The notes beneath the pieces are model-generated. The model saw only the letters and a list, made by a program, of their open reading frames with translations, did no database searches and was not told the origin of the DNA. Below are positions 28,343 through 37,916 of a stretch of 40,289 nucleotides of DNA, piece after piece (position 1 is the stretch's first letter; the number at the start of each line of letters is the position of its first letter). The stretch is taken from positions 1 to 40,289 of the forward strand of contig JAAYDU010000046.1 of assembly GCA_012729095.1 (NCBI GenBank), given 5' to 3'. Made by a program: the position numbers and the translations under genes. The DNA is from Methanobacteriota archaeon. Lineage in GTDB: Archaea > Thermoplasmatota > Thermoplasmata > Methanomassiliicoccales > UBA472.

Positions 28343-28768
28343 TCATCTAACGATGAGGACGGATGTGTTGGCCCGTTTGGAAAGGGACGATGAGACGCTC
28401 CCGATGAGAACGCCCCTGGCGGCCCCCATGCCCCTGCTGCCTGTCACGATCATGTCGGGCCTGAACGTCTCGGCGAACTCCAATATCTTGGTCACCGGCG
28501 GGCCGTGAAGCAGGTGGGCCGTGGCCTCCACCCCTTCGGACGTGAGTATCTCCAGGGATTCCTGGAGCACCTTCTTGGCCTGCACCTCCATCTCCTCTGT
28601 GTCCGCCTCGGCCATAAGGGAGGCGAACTCCCTTACCTCCACTACGCAGACCACGGCTATCTTGTAGGACGGGGAGGAAAGCGCCAGCAGGGCCGCCTTG
28701 CGCAAGGCCTTCTCCCCGTGCACCGAACCGTCCACCGCCACCAGCAACCTCAGCTGTTCCGCCTCCAT
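28343..28768 (-). CDS. Universal stress protein (UspA family)
   Basis: A 141-residue single-domain Usp with an N-terminal LLVAVDGSVHGEKAL and the ATP-binding signature G-x2-G-x9-GS in GSRGMGAARGVLIGSVS, so it probably binds ATP. The gene overlaps the 3' end of the antiporter gene by 19 bases, and GGTGG lies eight bases before ATG 28768, so translation is coupled. A regulatory role for the antiporter is an inference from this arrangement. GTG 28780 is a four-residue longer alternative start. Confidence 0.88.
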   Translation of the reverse strand: MEAEQLRLLVAVDGSVHGEKALRKAALLALSSPSYKIAVVCVVEVREFASLMAEADTEEMEVQAKKVLQESLEILTSEGVEATAHLLHGPPVTKILEFAETFRPDMIVTGSRGMGAARGVLIGSVSSSLSKRANTSVLIVR

Positions 28769-29871
28769 GGATCGAACCACCTCTGGGCCGCTAGCGTCGG
28801 CGCCAACGCCCCTATGATTATCGTTCCCACCAATATTGAGAATTGCGCCGTGTCGATCAGCCCCTGCCCGATCCCGAACTGCAGGAAGACCATTCCGAAG
28901 GTCAGCGATGTGGACATCAGCAGGGCTATGTACACGCGGTCCCCGCGCAGCGAGGCGCTGACCGCAGGCAGCACGAAGAGCATCTTCAGCAGCACGCGCC
29001 CGAGACCTAGTACGACGATCAGCCCCGCCCCGGCCAGCAGCGCCTCCATGGACACGTTCGAACCGGCGGCCAGGAAGAACAGAGATACCATGAAACCCAG
29101 GAAGACGGTGCGAACCTTGGACCAGGCCTCCTTCCTCTCGCCGAGGGAGCGGGACATGGCGAACCCCAGGAGATACGCGGGCAGCACGGCCGCCACGCCG
29201 GCCACGGAGGCCAGGCCGGCAAGCAGCAGCAGGGGGAGCAGCACGAGCTTCACCTCCGGCTCCCCGGGGCGGCCCCTGAAGCGGTCCAGTACCTTACCGG
29301 AGTAGCGATAGGCCAGGGGGACCAGCAGAAGCAGGGCCGCCAGCAGAAGCAGCACCTCCAGGCCAGGAGGGGCGAACAACACCGCCAGGGCGACGGAGGC
29401 GGCCAGATTGGTGAGGAAGCAGGCCGCGAGCACCACGGAACCCACGTCCGTCCGGGCCCGCCCGCCCTCGATCAGCACCACGTAGACTATGGCCACGGAG
29501 GTCTCCGACAGGGCCACCCCGGCCAGCAGCGACGCGTCCCATTGCCAACCGGCCAGGTGATGTAGGGAAACGGGCACCGTGAGGAATATGGACAGGAAGG
29601 ACGCCAGGGCGAGGGGGGCGCTGCTCCTCCACTGCCTTCGCACCCGCCCCACCTCCATCTCCGTTCCGGCCAGGAAGGTCAGGCCTATGCCCCCGAGAGC
29701 GGCAAGGAAGGAGAACCAGCCTATTTCCGAGGAGCGCAGGCCCAGGGCCTGACCGACCGCCAGTCCCAGAAGTATCTCGAATATCGCCGCGGACAGCCCG
29801 AATCGGGACGCTATCAGCTGGGCGCCCACTGCCAGGGACAGCAGCAATGCCAAGGTCAGGAGGTCGTTCAC
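28750..29871 (-). CDS. CPA2-type cation/proton antiporter (Kef/NapA-like)
   Basis: A 373-residue polytopic membrane protein with about 11-12 hydrophobic segments. The N-terminal region (LLSLAVGAQLIASRFGLSAAIFEILLGLAVG, shown here in pieces: FEILLGLAVGQALGL) and GGIGLTFLAGTEMEV match the conserved first helices of Kef-type exchangers, and SETSVAIVYVV is the discontinuous helix region. It lacks TrkA-N domains, so the downstream Usp protein may substitute as a regulatory partner. Start GTG 29871 is inferred because upstream codons are hydrophilic; GGAGG lies about 13 bases before it. Confidence 0.8.
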   Translation of the reverse strand: MNDLLTLALLLSLAVGAQLIASRFGLSAAIFEILLGLAVGQALGLRSSEIGWFSFLAALGGIGLTFLAGTEMEVGRVRRQWRSSAPLALASFLSIFLTVPVSLHHLAGWQWDASLLAGVALSETSVAIVYVVLIEGGRARTDVGSVVLAACFLTNLAASVALAVLFAPPGLEVLLLLAALLLLVPLAYRYSGKVLDRFRGRPGEPEVKLVLLPLLLLAGLASVAGVAAVLPAYLLGFAMSRSLGERKEAWSKVRTVFLGFMVSLFFLAAGSNVSMEALLAGAGLIVVLGLGRVLLKMLFVLPAVSASLRGDRVYIALLMSTSLTFGMVFLQFGIGQGLIDTAQFSILVGTIIIGALAPTLAAQRWFDPWRRNS

Positions 29872-29929
29872 TTCCGCACTTCCCTCCGCCGTATGTGTAA
29901 CTACAATTTGGTCTTTATCACCATGCGGT

Positions 29930-29938
29930 TGATATATC
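29930..29938 (+). promoter_or_regulatory. TATA box of the amidohydrolase gene
   Basis: TGATATATC lies about 24 bases before ATG 29959 and fixes that start. ATG 29923 would lie upstream of the TATA box. Confidence 0.5.
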
Positions 29939-29958
29939 GTCAGGATGATGATGATGGC

Positions 29959-31020
29959 ATGCGTTACCTCTCCGGCCTGGTGCTCGGCCAGAACGGTTTC
30001 TTCCCGGGTCATGTGGGCATCGAGGACGGGGTGATAGCGGAGATAGGGCGCGGCAAGAGGGGCAGCGCCCACGCCCGCGGCCTCATCGTTCCCACGTTCG
30101 TGAACGGGCACACCCACATCGCCGATTACATCGTGCCGGTCGACCCGTCCCTGAGCCTGGAGGAGCTGGTCGCCCCGCCAAGGGGGTTGAAGCACCGCGT
30201 TCTCGAGCAGGCGTCCCCGGACGACGTCATGCGCGGCATGCTGTCCATGAAGCGCTTCATGGCCCGGAGGGGCGTCTCCCACTTCCTGGATTTCCGGGAA
30301 GGTGGTTATGACGGCTCCGATTACCTGCGCCGGCTGGACGGGGAGGGCGCCGACCCGGTCATCATGGGGCGGCCGAAGATGCTGGAGTTCTGCCGGTCCG
30401 GTACCCGCAAGCTGCTGAAGGTGGCCGACGGCATAGCCGTCTCCTCCATATCCGACTGGGAGTACCCGGAGCTGCAGAAGCTGGCCAAGGAGGTGCGCGA
30501 TCAGGGGAGGCCGTTCGCCATACACGCCTCCGAACGGGTGAGGGAGGACATCGACAAGGTGCTGGACCTGAGACCGTCGTACATCGTTCACATGACGGAG
30601 GCGACCGACGACGACATGAGCAAGGTCTCCCAGGCCGGCGTTCCCGTGGTCGCCTGCCCGCGCTCCAATATGTTCTTCGGGAAAATACCGCCGCTAGCGC
30701 GTATGCTGGAGAACGGATTGACGGTCGCTCTGGGCACGGACAACGCCATGATATGCCTGCCAGACATGCTGGCTGAGATGGAGTTCGCCGCCCGCGTGCT
30801 ACGCTCACAGGGCAGGAACGGCGCGGTGGAGGCCCTGGATATGGCCATGAACGGGAGAAAATTATTAAATCGCCAGGAAGCGTTTAGTATAGAACCGGGA
30901 GCACGCTGCGAGCTGATGGTGCTCAGGCAGCGGGGCGGCGACCCTGTCACCGACCTCGTGTTGCGCAGCGCCGCTGACGCACCTGAGCTGGTATGCATAG
31001 GTAAGAATTGCTGGAGATGA
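29959..31020 (+). CDS. Amidohydrolase family metal enzyme (deaminase-like)
   Basis: A 353-residue TIM-barrel amidohydrolase. Metal ligands are H51 and H53 (NGHTHIAD), H189 (FAIHASE) and D261 (LGTDNAM); H211 (IVHMTEA) would be the catalytic base. CPRSNMFFG (233-241) echoes the CPxSN of the cytosine deaminase/S-adenosylhomocysteine deaminase (ATZ/TRZ) branch. It is about 70 residues shorter than typical MtaD/SAH deaminases, with a truncated beta-sandwich. The substrate is probably an aminopurine or related compound, but cannot be specified. It is followed four bases later by a Usp gene, probably in the same transcript. Confidence 0.82.
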   Translation: MRYLSGLVLGQNGFFPGHVGIEDGVIAEIGRGKRGSAHARGLIVPTFVNGHTHIADYIVPVDPSLSLEELVAPPRGLKHRVLEQASPDDVMRGMLSMKRFMARRGVSHFLDFREGGYDGSDYLRRLDGEGADPVIMGRPKMLEFCRSGTRKLLKVADGIAVSSISDWEYPELQKLAKEVRDQGRPFAIHASERVREDIDKVLDLRPSYIVHMTEATDDDMSKVSQAGVPVVACPRSNMFFGKIPPLARMLENGLTVALGTDNAMICLPDMLAEMEFAARVLRSQGRNGAVEALDMAMNGRKLLNRQEAFSIEPGARCELMVLRQRGGDPVTDLVLRSAADAPELVCIGKNCWR

Positions 31021-31024
31021 TCAC

Positions 31025-31468
31025 ATGGTTCTGTTCAAGAAGATACTGGTCCCGACCGACGGGAGCGAATATACCAAGGCCGCCGTGAGCATGGGATTGG
31101 AGATGGCCAAGGCGACCGGGGCTGAGGTCACCGCGCTATACGTGGTAGACCAGACCTCGTTCATCAATTTCCCCATGGACTCCACCATCGTGAGCGTTTA
31201 CACGCTTCTCGAGAAGGAGGGAGAGGAGGCCATGGAATACGTTAGGAAGGAGGCCGAGCAACTGGGCGTCAAGGTGTCCGTTCGGATCGAGGAGGGTTCC
31301 CCCTCAAGGAAGATAGTCGAGCTTTCCGCGGAGCATGACCTGGTGGTCATGGGGACCCTGGGGAGGACCGGTTTCTCGAAGCTGTTGCTGGGAAGCGTGG
31401 CCGAGAGAGTGGTGCGCTTCGCAAAATGCCCCGTGCTGGTCGTAAGGTCCCCGGGGGAGGAAAACTAG
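31025..31468 (+). CDS. Universal stress protein (UspA family)
   Basis: A 147-residue Usp: KKILVPTDGSEYTKAAV at the start and the ATP-binding signature GTLGRTGFSKLLLGSVAE near the end. The stop codon is followed immediately by the ATG of a CBS-domain gene, so these two nucleotide-sensing proteins are cotranscribed. It differs substantially in sequence from the other Usp in this window, so the two are not a recent duplication. Confidence 0.9.
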   Translation: MVLFKKILVPTDGSEYTKAAVSMGLEMAKATGAEVTALYVVDQTSFINFPMDSTIVSVYTLLEKEGEEAMEYVRKEAEQLGVKVSVRIEEGSPSRKIVELSAEHDLVVMGTLGRTGFSKLLLGSVAERVVRFAKCPVLVVRSPGEEN

Positions 31469-32317
31469 ATGGCCACGGTCGGGGACGTGATGACGTCCAA
31501 TCCGATTGTCGCCCAGGTACCGGGGTCCCGCCAGGAGGTGCTCAAGATAATGGTGCAGCACAACCTGACCGGGCTTCCCGTAGTGCGCAGGAACGATGGG
31601 GCCTTGGCGGGGATGATCACCCGCGAGGACATATTCGAGCGCCCGGATGAGGAGCAGGCCGCCATGATCATGCAGAGGGACCACCCCACCATATCCCCCA
31701 GGGATTCCGTGGAGGATGCCGCCAAGATCCTGGTGGAGGGGACCATGCGCCACCTGCCAGTGGTGGAGGGTAAGCGGCTGGTCGGCATATTGACGCCCAC
31801 GGACCTGCTGTGCATTGTCGAGAAGAGGAACATCGACGTGCCTGTGGAGGACGTGATCCGCTCGCCATGCGTTCCCATCTATCAGGAGGCGCCGCTGGCC
31901 GTGGCCAACATCACGCTCAAGGTCTCAAGGTCGTCCGCCCTGCCTGTGCTGGACGAGCAGGGACGCCTCACCGGGATTGTCACCGACCGCGACATATTCA
32001 ACAAGAGCTACGTGGAAGGCGCGGACGCCGCCACGGCCATGGGCATGTCCGAGGACGAGGAGCACCTGTCATGGGAAGGCCTGCGAAACGTCATCAAGCT
32101 GTGGTACGAGGTCTCCAAGATCGAGCTTCCGGGACTGCCTATAAAGGAGATCATGGTGCGAGACCCCATCACCGTGTTCAAGAAGACCGCCATCTCCGAG
32201 GCGGCGCGCATAATGCGCAAGAACGATTTCGGCCAGCTTCCCGTCCGAGACAACCGGGACCGGCTGCTGGCCATGATATACGACCACGACATAATCTCCG
32301 TGCTGATAAAGGAGTAA
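31469..32317 (+). CDS. Four-CBS-domain protein
   Basis: A 282-residue soluble protein of two tandem CBS pairs (about 2-55, 65-118, 124-177 and 224-278), the AMPK-gamma-like plan that binds adenine nucleotides or SAM. Typical pieces are TVGDVMTSNPIV, GLPVV, RHLPVVEGKRLVGILT and SALPVLDEQGRLTGIVTDRDIF. Between the third and fourth domains an insert of about 45 residues contains SWEGLRNVIKLWYEVSKI, a probable helix. It overlaps glyS by one base (TAATG), so it is coupled to a translation gene. Archaeal CBS proteins are known to regulate enzymes and ribosomes; the target here is unknown. Confidence 0.88.
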   Translation: MATVGDVMTSNPIVAQVPGSRQEVLKIMVQHNLTGLPVVRRNDGALAGMITREDIFERPDEEQAAMIMQRDHPTISPRDSVEDAAKILVEGTMRHLPVVEGKRLVGILTPTDLLCIVEKRNIDVPVEDVIRSPCVPIYQEAPLAVANITLKVSRSSALPVLDEQGRLTGIVTDRDIFNKSYVEGADAATAMGMSEDEEHLSWEGLRNVIKLWYEVSKIELPGLPIKEIMVRDPITVFKKTAISEAARIMRKNDFGQLPVRDNRDRLLAMIYDHDIISVLIKE

Positions 32318-34014
32318 TGAACCAGATGAAGGAGGTCAGCTCCGGGGAGATGCTCTCCCTATGCAAGAGACGTGGGTTCATCTACCCCGCTTACGAGATA
32401 TATGGTGGCATAGCCGGGCTATACGACTACGGCCCGCTGGGTACGGCGCTTAAGGGAAACATCGCCGACCTGTGGCGAAGGATATACGCCCTGCAGGAGG
32501 GCTTCGTGGAGATAGACGGGGACAGCGTGGGGCCGGAGGCGGTGTTCAAGGCCTCCGGGCACGTGGACAACTTCGCCGACCTCTCCGTGACGTGCAAGGA
32601 ATGCGGAGAGTCTTTCCGCGCGGACCACCTGGCGAAGGGGCTGCACCCCAACCCTGATTCCCTTTCCGCGGAGGACCTGCAGAGGCTTCTCCGGGACAAC
32701 GGCGTCAAGTGCCCCTGCGGGGGCGAGTTCGCCGACGTGGAAGAGTTCAACCTGATGTTCAAGACCAGGATAGGACCGGGAGGAGGCCGCACCGGTTACC
32801 TGCGCCCCGAAACGGCGCAGTCCATATTCGTCAATTACGTGAACCTTTACCGCCACTGCCGCGAGAGGCTGCCCTTCGGCTGCATACAGGTCGGCAGGGG
32901 ATACCGCAATGAGATCTCCCCCCGGCAGGGCGTCATACGCCTGAGGGAGTTCAACATGATGGAGGCCGAGCTTTTCGTCGATCCGGAGGACAAGACCTGG
33001 CCCCGCTACATGGACGTCCGGGACAGGAAGGTCAGATTGGTGCCGAACACCGATGAGAAGGAGGTGGAGATGACCTTGGGCGAGGCCGTGGACAGCGGCA
33101 TCATAGGCAACGAGACCCTGGGGTACTTCATATGGGTGACCTATGATTTCCTGACCTCCGCCGGGATAGACCCCCAGAGGCTGCGCTTCCGGCAGCATCT
33201 CAAGACCGAGATGGCGCATTACGCCGCGGACTGCTGGGACGCCGAGACCCTCATAAGCTTCGGCTGGACGGAGATAGTGGGCATAGCCGATCGCGGCTGC
33301 TGGGACCTGTCCCAGCACATTAAGCATTCCAAGGCCGACCTGACCGCGTTCAAAAGGTTCGACGAGCCCAGGGACGTGGAGAGGGACGCCGTCAAGCCGA
33401 AGTTCGGAGCCCTGGGCCCGCGCTTCAAGGGAGCGGCCGGCGACATCAAGAAGCAGCTGGAGTCCATGGACGCCTCCGCCGTGCACGATGGTCTGGTGAC
33501 CGTCACGGTGAACGGAGAACCGGTGGACCTGGACACCGCGTACTACGAGGTGGTGCGGGTGAAGGAGAAGGTGAACGGCGTGCGCGTCGTTCCCCATGTG
33601 ATAGAGCCGTCACACGGTTTGGACCGCATACTGTACAGCTGCCTGGAGCACGCGTACACCGAAAAGGAGGACGGTTACGTCACCCTGCGGTTGAAACCAG
33701 CGGTGGCCCCCATCAAGGTGGGGGTGTTCCCCCTGATGGCCAAGGACGGCATGGCGGAGGTCGCCAAGGCCTTGGACATGGCCTTGCGCGAGGAGGGCAT
33801 CGTCACCTATTACGACGATTCCGGGTCCATCGGCCGGCGCTATGCCAGGATGGACGAGGCGGGCACGCCCTGGTGCGTCACCGTGGACTATGACACGCTG
33901 GAAAAGGGCGACGTTACAGTGCGCGAGCGCGACACCGCCGAGCAGAAGCGCATATCGGCGGATGACGTCGTCACCTGGGTGAGGGACCGCCTCAGACGCA
34001 AACTATCATACTGA
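32317..34014 (+). CDS. glyS: Glycyl-tRNA synthetase, dimeric type
   Basis: A 565-residue class II synthetase of the alpha2 type found in archaea and eukaryotes. N-terminal GGIAGLYDYGPLG (about 28-40) and motif 2-region RTGYLRPETAQSIFVNY are intact; NEISPRQGVIRLREFNMMEAELF is the conserved glycine/adenylate region, followed by a C-terminal anticodon-binding domain (APIKVGVFPLMAKDGM). A CxxC pair occurs in the insertion (TCKECGESF, KCPCGGEF), probably zinc. The ATG at 32317 overlaps the preceding stop; ATG 32326 is an alternative. Confidence 0.95.
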   Translation: MNQMKEVSSGEMLSLCKRRGFIYPAYEIYGGIAGLYDYGPLGTALKGNIADLWRRIYALQEGFVEIDGDSVGPEAVFKASGHVDNFADLSVTCKECGESFRADHLAKGLHPNPDSLSAEDLQRLLRDNGVKCPCGGEFADVEEFNLMFKTRIGPGGGRTGYLRPETAQSIFVNYVNLYRHCRERLPFGCIQVGRGYRNEISPRQGVIRLREFNMMEAELFVDPEDKTWPRYMDVRDRKVRLVPNTDEKEVEMTLGEAVDSGIIGNETLGYFIWVTYDFLTSAGIDPQRLRFRQHLKTEMAHYAADCWDAETLISFGWTEIVGIADRGCWDLSQHIKHSKADLTAFKRFDEPRDVERDAVKPKFGALGPRFKGAAGDIKKQLESMDASAVHDGLVTVTVNGEPVDLDTAYYEVVRVKEKVNGVRVVPHVIEPSHGLDRILYSCLEHAYTEKEDGYVTLRLKPAVAPIKVGVFPLMAKDGMAEVAKALDMALREEGIVTYYDDSGSIGRRYARMDEAGTPWCVTVDYDTLEKGDVTVRERDTAEQKRISADDVVTWVRDRLRRKLSY

Positions 34015-34049
34015 AACAAAACCCTATGACATATGGAAGGTGAGCCAAA

Positions 34050-35252
34050 ATGGTAGGAGAAAGCATCGAGGGATTGAAAAAAAGGGAACTGCTCAGGTCC
34101 CTGATCGACGGTAACAAGGTCGATGGCCTGATGCGCAAGAAGTTCGAGACCGTAGACCCGGAGATGGGCCTCTCCGATGTTGTGGCCAAGATGAAGGCGT
34201 CCGACCTGCACGAGATACCGGTCGTGGAGGGCAAGAAGCTGCTTGGCGTCGTGAGCTATGGGACGGTGATCAGGAAGAAGAACCTGGTAGTGGGCACCAA
34301 GGCCAAGACCATGGTCGAGGTCACTCCCGAGATAACGTTGGAAACGCCGATAACGGAGATAGCGGAGCATTTCCTTTCCTCCGGATACAGGCATCTGCCG
34401 GTGACCAAGGGGAAGTCCATACAGGGCATAATAACCAGGGCCGGCGTGCTGTCCGTGCTCCCCAAGCTCAAGGACATCAAGTCCCTGAAGGTGGGGGAGA
34501 TAATGAGCGAGGGGGCCCGCTCGGTGCACGAGAAGGACCTCATCAAGAACGCCATGGCCCTGATGCGCGACCTGGAGGTTCGCACCGTGCCGGTGGTTAA
34601 CGATTACGACCATCTCGTGGGCATAATAGGCATCAAGGACATCGTGCAGTACTCCTGGAGCGGCGCGGGCACCAGGAACCAGGGGCGGGGCGACCTGTAC
34701 CCCAACAAGAGCCCGGTGGAGCTGGAGGTGCGCTCGATAATGCACGATGACCCGGTCACCATGAAGACGACGGACCCGCTGACCACTGCCATCGATACCA
34801 TGATCGAGAGGAACATATCAACCATTCCAGTGGTGACCGGGGAGCGCATGGTCGGGGTCATCACCAAGTACGACATCCTGGAGCTGGTGGCGTCCGTGCG
34901 CAACAGGGACATGGTGTACACCCAGATATCGGGACTGGAGGAGGAGGACCGGCTTTCCCTGGACATCATGGAGAGAGAGGTTCAGTCCGGCCTGGCCAAG
35001 ATAGCCAAGTTCACCCGGCCCCTGCTGTTCAACCTGCACGTGAGCAAGTACAACAACACCGGGAACAGCGCCAAGTACTCCCTGACCGGCAGGCTCAGCA
35101 CGGAGGGCTCCCATTACATGGCCAAGGCCGTGGACTGGTCCCTGGGGCAGGCGACCATCGAGCTTATGGACAACCTGGACCGCATAGTCAAGGAGAGGAA
35201 GGAGCACAACCAGGAAGTGCGGATCAAGAAGAACCGGCACGAGAGGGTCTGA
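34050..35252 (+). CDS. Four-CBS protein with C-terminal HPF/RaiA-like domain
   Basis: A 400-residue fusion. Four CBS domains (about 24-74, 83-137, 148-203, 227-281) are followed by a region of about 110 residues. That region has the order of the ribosome hibernation factor fold: a short strand QISG, a long amphipathic helix (RLSLDIMEREVQSGLAKIAKF), three strands (PLLFNLHVSKYNN, AKYSLTGRLSTEGS) and a final helix (MAKAVDWSLGQATIELMDNL). This matches HPF/RaiA in layout, including the small-residue-rich helix start, but I cannot align it formally. GGTGA precedes ATG as Shine-Dalgarno. The position between glyS and valS supports a ribosome role. A nucleotide-controlled hibernation factor is the best hypothesis. 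Confidence 0.8.
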   Translation: MVGESIEGLKKRELLRSLIDGNKVDGLMRKKFETVDPEMGLSDVVAKMKASDLHEIPVVEGKKLLGVVSYGTVIRKKNLVVGTKAKTMVEVTPEITLETPITEIAEHFLSSGYRHLPVTKGKSIQGIITRAGVLSVLPKLKDIKSLKVGEIMSEGARSVHEKDLIKNAMALMRDLEVRTVPVVNDYDHLVGIIGIKDIVQYSWSGAGTRNQGRGDLYPNKSPVELEVRSIMHDDPVTMKTTDPLTTAIDTMIERNISTIPVVTGERMVGVITKYDILELVASVRNRDMVYTQISGLEEEDRLSLDIMEREVQSGLAKIAKFTRPLLFNLHVSKYNNTGNSAKYSLTGRLSTEGSHYMAKAVDWSLGQATIELMDNLDRIVKERKEHNQEVRIKKNRHERV

Positions 35253-35265
35253 GGCGCTCAGCAAT

Positions 35266-35275
35266 CTTTTTTAAA
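35266..35275 (+). promoter_or_regulatory. TATA box of valS
   Basis: CTTTTTTAAA is centred about 30 bases before ATG 35301, pointing to a separate, leaderless valS transcript beyond the CBS gene. Confidence 0.5.
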
Positions 35276-35300
35276 CCTCTTCCCATTCCCTTTCCAGTCC

Positions 35301-37916
35301 ATGGCGCAATACGAGGCTATCCAGACCGAGAGGAAATGGCAGAAGCGGTGGAAGGACTGGGAACTGTACAAGTTCGACCGGGGTTCGGACGCTCCTGTCT
35401 ACTCTGTCGACAATCCCCCCCGCTACGCCTCCGGCTCCCTGCACCTGGGACATGCTACCGGTTACTCGCTCATAGATTTCGCCGCCCGCTATCACAGGCA
35501 GCGCGGCTACAACGTGATGTTCCCGCTGTGCTTTGACGTGAACGGAACTCCCGTCGAAGTTAGGGTGGAGAAGAAGTTCGGCATCAACAAGTACTCCGTG
35601 CCAAGGCAGGAGTACATCAAGATGTGCGAGGAGTACGCCAACTCTTTCATAGAGTCCATGAAGCAGCAGTTCGAGATACTGGGGGAGAGCATGGACCCCT
35701 CGGTGTACTACCAGACGGACGCCCCTTACTATCGCCGCATAACGCAGATCTCCTTCCTGAAGATGCTGGAGAAGGGGCTGGCGTACAAGGGAGAGTACCC
35801 GGTGAACTGGTGCCCCCGGTGCATCACGGCGCTGGCGGACGCTGAGGTGGAATACGACGAGAACGTCACCAAGCTCAACTACGTGAAGTTCTTCCTGGCC
35901 GATGGAACGGGACATATCATCATCGCCACGACCCGCCCCGAGCTCATATGCACCTGCCAGACGATAGCCGTGCACCCCAACGACGAGAGGTACAAGGACC
36001 TGGTGGGAAAGGACATCATCACCCCTGTCTTCGGAAAGAAGGTCAAGGTCATATCGGACGAGAAGGTGGACCCGGCCTTCGGTTCCGGCATCGTGATGAT
36101 ATGCACCATCGGGGACAAGACCGACCTGGAATGGGTGATGAAGTACAAGCTGCCCCTGGAGAAGGGGCTGGACGAGGAAGGGCGCATGACGGCGCTGGCC
36201 GGACCTTACGAGGGCATGCCGGTAAAGGACGCTCGCGCGAAGATAATCGAGGACCTGCTGGCCCAGGGCATCATCACCAGGCAGGAGGACCAGCAGCAGA
36301 ACCGCTCCATATGCTGGAGGTGCCACACCCCCATAGAGTTCCTGCAGGTCAAGCAGTGGTTCATCAGGACCATGGACTTCAAGAAGGAAGTGCTTGCGAA
36401 GGCGGACGAGATAGAGTGGTTCCCCGAGTTCATGAAGGTGCGGCTACAGGATTGGGTGAACTCCCTGCAGTGGGATTGGGTCGTTTCGCGTCAGCGCTAC
36501 TTCGCCACCCCGATACCGGTGTGGGAGTGCCAGGACTGCGGTTACGTGCTGCCGGCCAAGGAGAAGGACTGTTACATAGATCCCACGATAACCAAGCCGT
36601 ACGAGGACAGGTGCCCGAAGTGCGGCGGCGAGCTGAAGGGGTGCGAGGACGTGTTCGACACCTGGATGGATTCTTCGGTATCCCCGCTATACAACACCTT
36701 CTGGCAGCGGGACGAGGAGCTGTTCAAGAAGCTTTACCCGATGTCATTGAGGCCCCAGTCCCATGACATCATCCGGACCTGGGCGTTCTATACGATCCTA
36801 AGGGAACATCTGCTGACCGGAAAGCGCCCCTGGGACCACATCATGATACACGGGTTCATCATGGCCCCGGATGGCACGCCGATGCACACCTCGCTCGGGA
36901 ACGTGATAGACCCCATGCCGCTCCTGCAGACCTACGGTACGGACGCCCTGCGCTACTACGCCTGCACCTGCTCGCTGGGAGAGGACCACGCCTTCCGGGA
37001 GAGGGACGTCGTTCACGGCAAGAAGCTGTGCACGAAGATCTGGAACCTGGGCAAGCTCATCGAGATGACCGTTGCGGAGAAACCGGAGAGGGTTCGGTTG
37101 AAGCCGATCGACCGGTGGATCATGTCCCACTACACGAAGGTGCTGAAGACCGTTACGGAGCACATGGATTCGTATAACTTCGACAAAGCGATGCGCGAGG
37201 TGGAGAACTTCGCCTGGAAGGAGTTCGCCGACCATTACGTGGAGATGATAAAGCACCGCACCCGTGGCGACGACAGGTCCGTAAAGTACACGCTGTACAC
37301 GGTCTACCTTGGCATACTGAAGATGATGGCGCCCATGCTTCCTCACGTGACGGAGGACGCCTACCAGGCCTTCGCCGATATGGACGGGGCGAGGTCCATC
37401 CATGTCAGCAAGTGGCCGGAGCCGGAGCGCATCGACGAGGATGCCGAAAGGAAGGGAGACCTGGCCAAGGAGGTCATAGCGTCCGTTCGGACATGGAAGG
37501 CGGAGAAGAAGTACCCGCTGAACAAGGAGCTGGCGAGGGTGGAGATCGTGGGCAAGGACGCCTACCTGCTCAGGGGATACGAGGACGACATCGCGCAGAC
37601 CGTTAGGGCGAGCGTGCTGGAACTGCTGGAGGAAGCACACCTGGACAGCCATCCGGCGGTGATCAGGCCGGTGCACTCCAAGCTAGGTCCGCTGTTCAAG
37701 AACTACGCCAAGGAGATAGTCGGGCAGCTGGTTACCATGGACCCCGCCGAGGCGCGGACGCTTTTGGAGAAGGACGGCATAGACCTGCTGATGAACGACG
37801 GGCGGAAGGTACGCGTAACCAGCGACCTGGTGGAGGTCGTCTGCGAGCTGCAGTACCAGGGCAAGGCCGTGGACACCTTGCAGGTCGGGGACCTGCTGCT
37901 GGTAATAGAGGCTTAA
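35301..37916 (+). CDS. valS: Valyl-tRNA synthetase with altered KMSKS loop
   Basis: An 871-residue class Ia synthetase. The HIGH motif is HLGH (48-51) in SGSLHLGHATGY. The editing domain TTRPELICTCQTIAVHPNDERY (cited in part: TTRPELICTC) is of ValRS type, and zinc-like CxxC pairs occur (WCPRC, CQDCG, CPKCG). The KMSKS position reads PMHTS-LGNVIDP (527-538): the flanking GNVIDP is conserved but both lysines are missing. Archaeal ValRS normally have KMSKS there. The C-terminal anticodon-binding region is present. Isoleucyl-tRNA synthetase was considered, but the editing-domain sequence favours valine. Confidence 0.85.
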   Translation: MAQYEAIQTERKWQKRWKDWELYKFDRGSDAPVYSVDNPPRYASGSLHLGHATGYSLIDFAARYHRQRGYNVMFPLCFDVNGTPVEVRVEKKFGINKYSVPRQEYIKMCEEYANSFIESMKQQFEILGESMDPSVYYQTDAPYYRRITQISFLKMLEKGLAYKGEYPVNWCPRCITALADAEVEYDENVTKLNYVKFFLADGTGHIIIATTRPELICTCQTIAVHPNDERYKDLVGKDIITPVFGKKVKVISDEKVDPAFGSGIVMICTIGDKTDLEWVMKYKLPLEKGLDEEGRMTALAGPYEGMPVKDARAKIIEDLLAQGIITRQEDQQQNRSICWRCHTPIEFLQVKQWFIRTMDFKKEVLAKADEIEWFPEFMKVRLQDWVNSLQWDWVVSRQRYFATPIPVWECQDCGYVLPAKEKDCYIDPTITKPYEDRCPKCGGELKGCEDVFDTWMDSSVSPLYNTFWQRDEELFKKLYPMSLRPQSHDIIRTWAFYTILREHLLTGKRPWDHIMIHGFIMAPDGTPMHTSLGNVIDPMPLLQTYGTDALRYYACTCSLGEDHAFRERDVVHGKKLCTKIWNLGKLIEMTVAEKPERVRLKPIDRWIMSHYTKVLKTVTEHMDSYNFDKAMREVENFAWKEFADHYVEMIKHRTRGDDRSVKYTLYTVYLGILKMMAPMLPHVTEDAYQAFADMDGARSIHVSKWPEPERIDEDAERKGDLAKEVIASVRTWKAEKKYPLNKELARVEIVGKDAYLLRGYEDDIAQTVRASVLELLEEAHLDSHPAVIRPVHSKLGPLFKNYAKEIVGQLVTMDPAEARTLLEKDGIDLLMNDGRKVRVTSDLVEVVCELQYQGKAVDTLQVGDLLLVIEA

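Follow-up and report, generated by a model that had tools for sequence, protein, structure and literature searches.

The 400-amino-acid (400-aa) protein analysed here, encoded in a 40,289-nucleotide stretch of DNA (the window), is very probably an ortholog, in the Methanomassiliicoccales, of the archaeal ribosome hibernation factor HibA, whose family was described by Madru et al. in April 2026 (PMC13324472). The protein joins four CBS domains to an HPF/RaiA domain at its C terminus, as an earlier sequence-only reading had proposed, the former recognized by Pfam and the latter by fold search, and we place the protein in the HibA family with high confidence. The CBS-HPF fusion is already known from that published family; the protein represents no novel type. 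The remaining interest lies in a conserved gene block around hibA and in tandem hibA copies.

The gene itself is an ordinary one and was correctly spotted at the outset, with an ATG start and a TGA stop exactly at the limits given in Table 1. Its open frame and C-terminal domain persist in other families of the order even where identity has fallen to 33-36%. Of 250 Thermoplasmata genomes, 225 have a match to the C-terminal profile, which nearly always lies within a frame of about 390-400 aa. Because of this conservation, we do not regard the frame as a chance one. Close relatives of the product occur in Methanomassiliicoccales metagenome assemblies, and, within the 250-genome sample, HibA is nearly universal in the class Thermoplasmata.

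Table 1. Features of the hibA locus. Positions refer to the window, except in the last row, where they refer to each locus.
Feature	Position	Strand	Basis
UspA-like universal stress protein (uspA)	31025..31468	+	Name from sequence character
Stand-alone four-CBS protein, CM-3/HhpR-like	31469..32317	+	Pfam 5.8e-49, HhpR model, PH1780 match
glyS, glycyl-tRNA synthetase	32317..34014	+	ORF; order-wide hibA neighbour
Shine-Dalgarno-like ggaaggtgag, 5' of hibA ATG	34034..34049	+	Sequence reading
hibA, putative CBS-HPF/RaiA ribosome hibernation factor, 400 aa	34050..35252	+	ORF; full-length match to 9sr9_H
CBS module, four CBS domains, residues about 22-283	34113..34898	+	Pfam PF00571, structure matches
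Loop between CBS3 and CBS4, residues about 203-222	34656..34716	+	Alignment with 9sr9_H residues 190-207 region
CBS4 GxxT/SxxD nucleotide motif, G269-D275 (T272, D275)	34854..34874	+	Conservation in 29 sequences
C-terminal HPF/RaiA domain, residues 284-400	34899..35249	+	AlphaFold2, Foldseek, profile match
valS, valyl-tRNA synthetase	35301..37916	+	ORF; order-wide neighbour
Tandem hibA paralogs, family f6	L091 4678-7243; L092 4872-7437; L093 4777-7502; L094 4549-7128	L093 minus

Correspondence with HibA on the ribosome

The protein matches PDB chain 9sr9_H collinearly over residues 21-396 (phmmer, 1.3e-16), and the family profile does so over positions 22-390 (2.2e-45). The chain, of 392 aa, was deposited as "Dehydrogenase"; we infer that it is the Pyrococcus abyssi HibA of Madru et al. 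(Q9UYR4, PDB 9sr9), because its 392-aa length, architecture and 2026 deposition agree with their paper. There, HibA consists of four CBS domains (residues 1-269) and an HPF/RaiA domain (residues 270-392) and is found in 47% of archaeal genomes (PMC13324472). The window protein has the same domains, collinear over the full length; identity is 23.6% for the CBS module and 18.3% for the HPF domain. Among the residues that the order conserves and P. abyssi HibA shares are Y290, Q292, G295, D300, Y343, R348 and W363. The HPF-domain loop lengths of the window protein appear to match those of the archaeal insertions; by the 9sr9_H alignment alone, the segments for both insertions (between strand 1 and helix 1 and between strands 2 and 3) are present. 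In contrast to P. abyssi HibA, it carries a 20-residue N-terminal helix extension before CBS1.

Pfam finds PF00571 in four stretches of the protein (6.8e-42), and the structure matches of the CBS module are to archaeal CBS-module proteins and AMPK gamma. The long loop between CBS3 and CBS4, common to both proteins, is by alignment the equivalent of the HibA "PTC loop," for which a function has been described (PMC13324472). It is two residues longer than in P. abyssi, and only its length, its place and two glycine/proline positions are common to the two; one loop residue, G214, occurs in P. abyssi as well as in 25 of the 29 order sequences. In the full-length model, pLDDT is low at residues 206-220.

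What HibA does is known from the Thermococcales. P. abyssi HibA is abundant on native 70S ribosomes, where it occupies the mRNA channel and the tRNA sites, and it inhibits translation; deletion of hibA in T. barophilus delays recovery and lowers 70S pools (PMC13324472). By analogy with these two orthologs, the window protein would likewise bind and inhibit the ribosome, and its contacts may differ in detail, since identity to P. abyssi HibA is so low in both parts. In this model, the HPF/RaiA domain would anchor in the 30S mRNA channel and decoding center and there obstruct both mRNA and A/P-site tRNA. On the 50S side, vacant tRNA sites would receive the tethered four-CBS module, which would keep the 70S ribosome from being split or degraded before growth restarts. 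The hibernation role suggested by the sequence-only reading gains support from the sequence, from the fold and from an ortholog whose structure on the ribosome is solved. Its analogy to CBS-containing ribosome dimerization factors is a loose one, given that HibA is described as a 70S-stabilizing plug and not as a dimerizer.

Several other archaeal proteins resemble the window protein in part. Haloferax volcanii HVO_2384, likened to it by description, has the same architecture and has been suggested to have a link to energy status; it is known because it co-purifies with a Pat2 variant, and not from studies of ribosomes (PMC12607858). Dri of Pyrobaculum (PDB 9e6q) and SriA-D of Methanosarcina (PDB 9znf/9zng/9zni) are CBS-module proteins seen on archaeal ribosomes, and the fold of their CBS modules is similar. 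However, the Sri chains have only 270-339 aa, and their match is confined to the CBS part, while Dri is described, as far as the account in PMC13324472 goes, as two CBS modules without an HPF domain. The HPF domain of the window protein rules out its assignment to this class of Dri and stand-alone CBS-module hibernation proteins.

Nucleotide gating and roles off the ribosome

Could the engagement of HibA with the ribosome be switched directly by AMP or ATP at the CBS module? Nucleotide gating of this kind, which the sequence-only reading had put forward, is a hypothesis in which our confidence is low, and we consider it unlikely. In its favor, P. abyssi HibA-CM binds nucleotide at the CBS3/4 interface and prefers AMP (Kd, 12 uM) over ADP (65) and ATP (113) (PMC13324472). 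The CBS4 motif is also kept, in the window protein and across the order: in the window protein plus 28 others of the order (n = 29), G269 and D275 are invariant and T272 is present in 27, with Ser in the other two, and all three residues align with identical ones in P. abyssi HibA. The CBS3 motif points the other way. Its Ser/Thr position, in a difference from P. abyssi HibA, is Gly194 in 29 of 29 Methanomassiliicoccales sequences, and 10 of them have Glu or Gln in place of D197. Moreover, AMP or ATP had no clear effect on ribosome binding in P. abyssi, where the bound states stayed essentially the same in kind and in proportion, and no nucleotide was seen in native P. abyssi complexes (PMC13324472). 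Judging by these motifs, one nucleotide site in the window protein is plausible, and this site is likely changed relative to that of P. abyssi HibA. Adenylate sensing at CBS3/4 is possible.

A more radical departure is that the protein acts mainly outside the ribosome, as a regulator or scaffold, for example for DNA-repair or replication partners or for an acetyltransferase, with the HPF-like domain kept and the CBS module sensing adenylates. Pull-downs of Thermococcales HibA with recombination and replication factors, as cited in PMC13324472, would fit such a role, as would the co-purification of HVO_2384 with an inactive Pat2 variant (PMC12607858). Against it stand the abundance of the P. 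abyssi ortholog on native 70S ribosomes and its inhibition of translation (PMC13324472), and the neighbors of hibA are translation and stress genes. We regard an off-ribosome main role as very improbable.

Fold of the C-terminal domain

The claim of an HPF domain needed a test because it had been based solely on the predicted order of secondary structure. That order, strand-helix-strand-strand-strand-helix, holds: in the 117-residue fragment (residues 284-400), strands are predicted at fragment positions 7-11, 41-52, 58-68 and 72-79 and helices at 19-35 and 82-115. The single C-terminal sequence (about 116 residues) had no family match in Pfam or NCBIfam, and against the PDB it returned only a chance match to an antibody. 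Because single-sequence searches gave nothing, profiles and structure were needed, and close relatives from other genomes were gathered into a six-sequence alignment of the domain. In the full-length model, confidence is low, at about 55, over the C-terminal part, and the domain was therefore folded alone, the only form in which its prediction is confident (AlphaFold2; pLDDT, 85.5).

Foldseek gave 21 matches in the PDB at E<=0.001, all of them HPF, pY, RaiA or long-HPF proteins of bacteria and chloroplasts, with TM-scores of about 0.5-0.7 for the HPF-type matches. The best PDB match of the 29-sequence C-terminal profile is P. urativorans RaiA (8rd8_D; E, 0.0039). PF02482 is detected in 8 of the 29 members of the alignment (best, 5e-4), while the similarity of the window protein's own sequence is too low for Pfam. 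A chance resemblance of the C-terminal profile to the protein's own CBS module was ruled out (probability, 0.3%); the profile has no match to the CBS part. The bacterial and chloroplast proteins of PF02482 share the fold of the C-terminal domain and, unlike the window protein, have no CBS module. That the region is instead an unrelated CBS-associated domain, such as an ACT-like or dsRBD-like fold, has next to no probability; as far as a predicted model allows, the fold search has refuted it, since the missing Pfam match of the single sequence and the dsRBDs among the weaker Foldseek matches (none before E about 0.035, and their TM-scores are lower) stand against 34 leading Foldseek matches and best profile matches that are all of the HPF/pY/RaiA type.

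Gene neighborhood and tandem copies

The HibA gene of Methanomassiliicoccales differs from that of P. abyssi in its linkage to uspA, a CM-3-like gene, glyS and valS. In the window, uspA, the four-CBS gene, glyS, hibA and valS follow in succession on one strand (31025-37916), and the place of hibA between glyS and valS is as first read. The uspA stop directly precedes the four-CBS gene, so that the two touch; the glyS start overlaps the stop of the latter by 1 nt (an alternative start three codons downstream is possible); and 35 nt separate the glyS stop from the hibA ATG. The mechanically called glyS frame (31810-34014) begins 507 bases too early, inside the four-CBS gene, the real start being at about 32317. 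We take hibA to be a putative operon member. The valS gene is probably on its own transcript, because a TATA-like TTTTTTAAA, which we take as a candidate promoter, lies about 30 nt before its ATG. Directly 3' of hibA (35249-35301) is a terminator-like inverted repeat with a T-run, which overlaps this TATA-like element.

The stand-alone four-CBS protein matches the HhpR model NF053603 at 1.1e-45, which is below the model's cut-off, and PH1780 (2yzq) over its full length at 4.7e-38. It resembles the CM-3 type, whose members are regarded as transcriptional regulators (PMC13324472). A second UspA-like frame (28343-28780, minus strand) lies beside a putative sodium/proton antiporter-like membrane protein (28750-30591, minus strand).

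Across the order, the sequence uspA-CBS-glyS-hibA is kept in all 22 loci examined (20 plus L002 and L003), and valS comes next in 21; in the sole exception, the contig ends shortly after hibA. This linkage with two synthetase genes fits a role in translation. Outside the order, glyS adjoins hibA in only 2 of 20 loci of the class, both in family f13, and a class-wide glyS-hibA linkage was rejected. Three same-genus genomes (G001, G007 and G008) seem to lack hibA; because they are also without full-length orthologs of glyS and valS (G008 has a glyS fragment), we attribute this to an unassembled region and reject gene loss.

In family f6, four genomes from two genera carry two tandem hibA copies that are 47-51% identical to each other. 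The HPF domain is kept in both, and the second copies form one clade (support, 98/98). Neither the order-wide gene block nor these tandem copies were found in the main text of PMC13324472. The uspA-CBS-glyS-hibA-valS linkage may be unreported, because the words "synthetase" and "operon" are absent from that main text.

We speculate, tentatively and against the odds, that HibA of Methanomassiliicoccales is one output of a stress-translation operon comprising UspA, the CM-3/HhpR-like CBS protein, GlyRS and HibA, with ValRS adjoining. Two CBS modules on one transcript would then adjust tRNA charging and the silencing of ribosomes jointly to the adenylate state, and the diverged tandem HibA of one family would be a specialized partner. 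In total, a methanogen gene otherwise recognizable only as encoding a CBS-domain protein is now placed in a newly described hibernation family. How stress or translation capacity controls HibA expression was left open in PMC13324472; with hibA consistently linked to uspA, a CBS-regulator gene, glyS and valS, these neighbors offer a lead on what may tie HibA expression to both.
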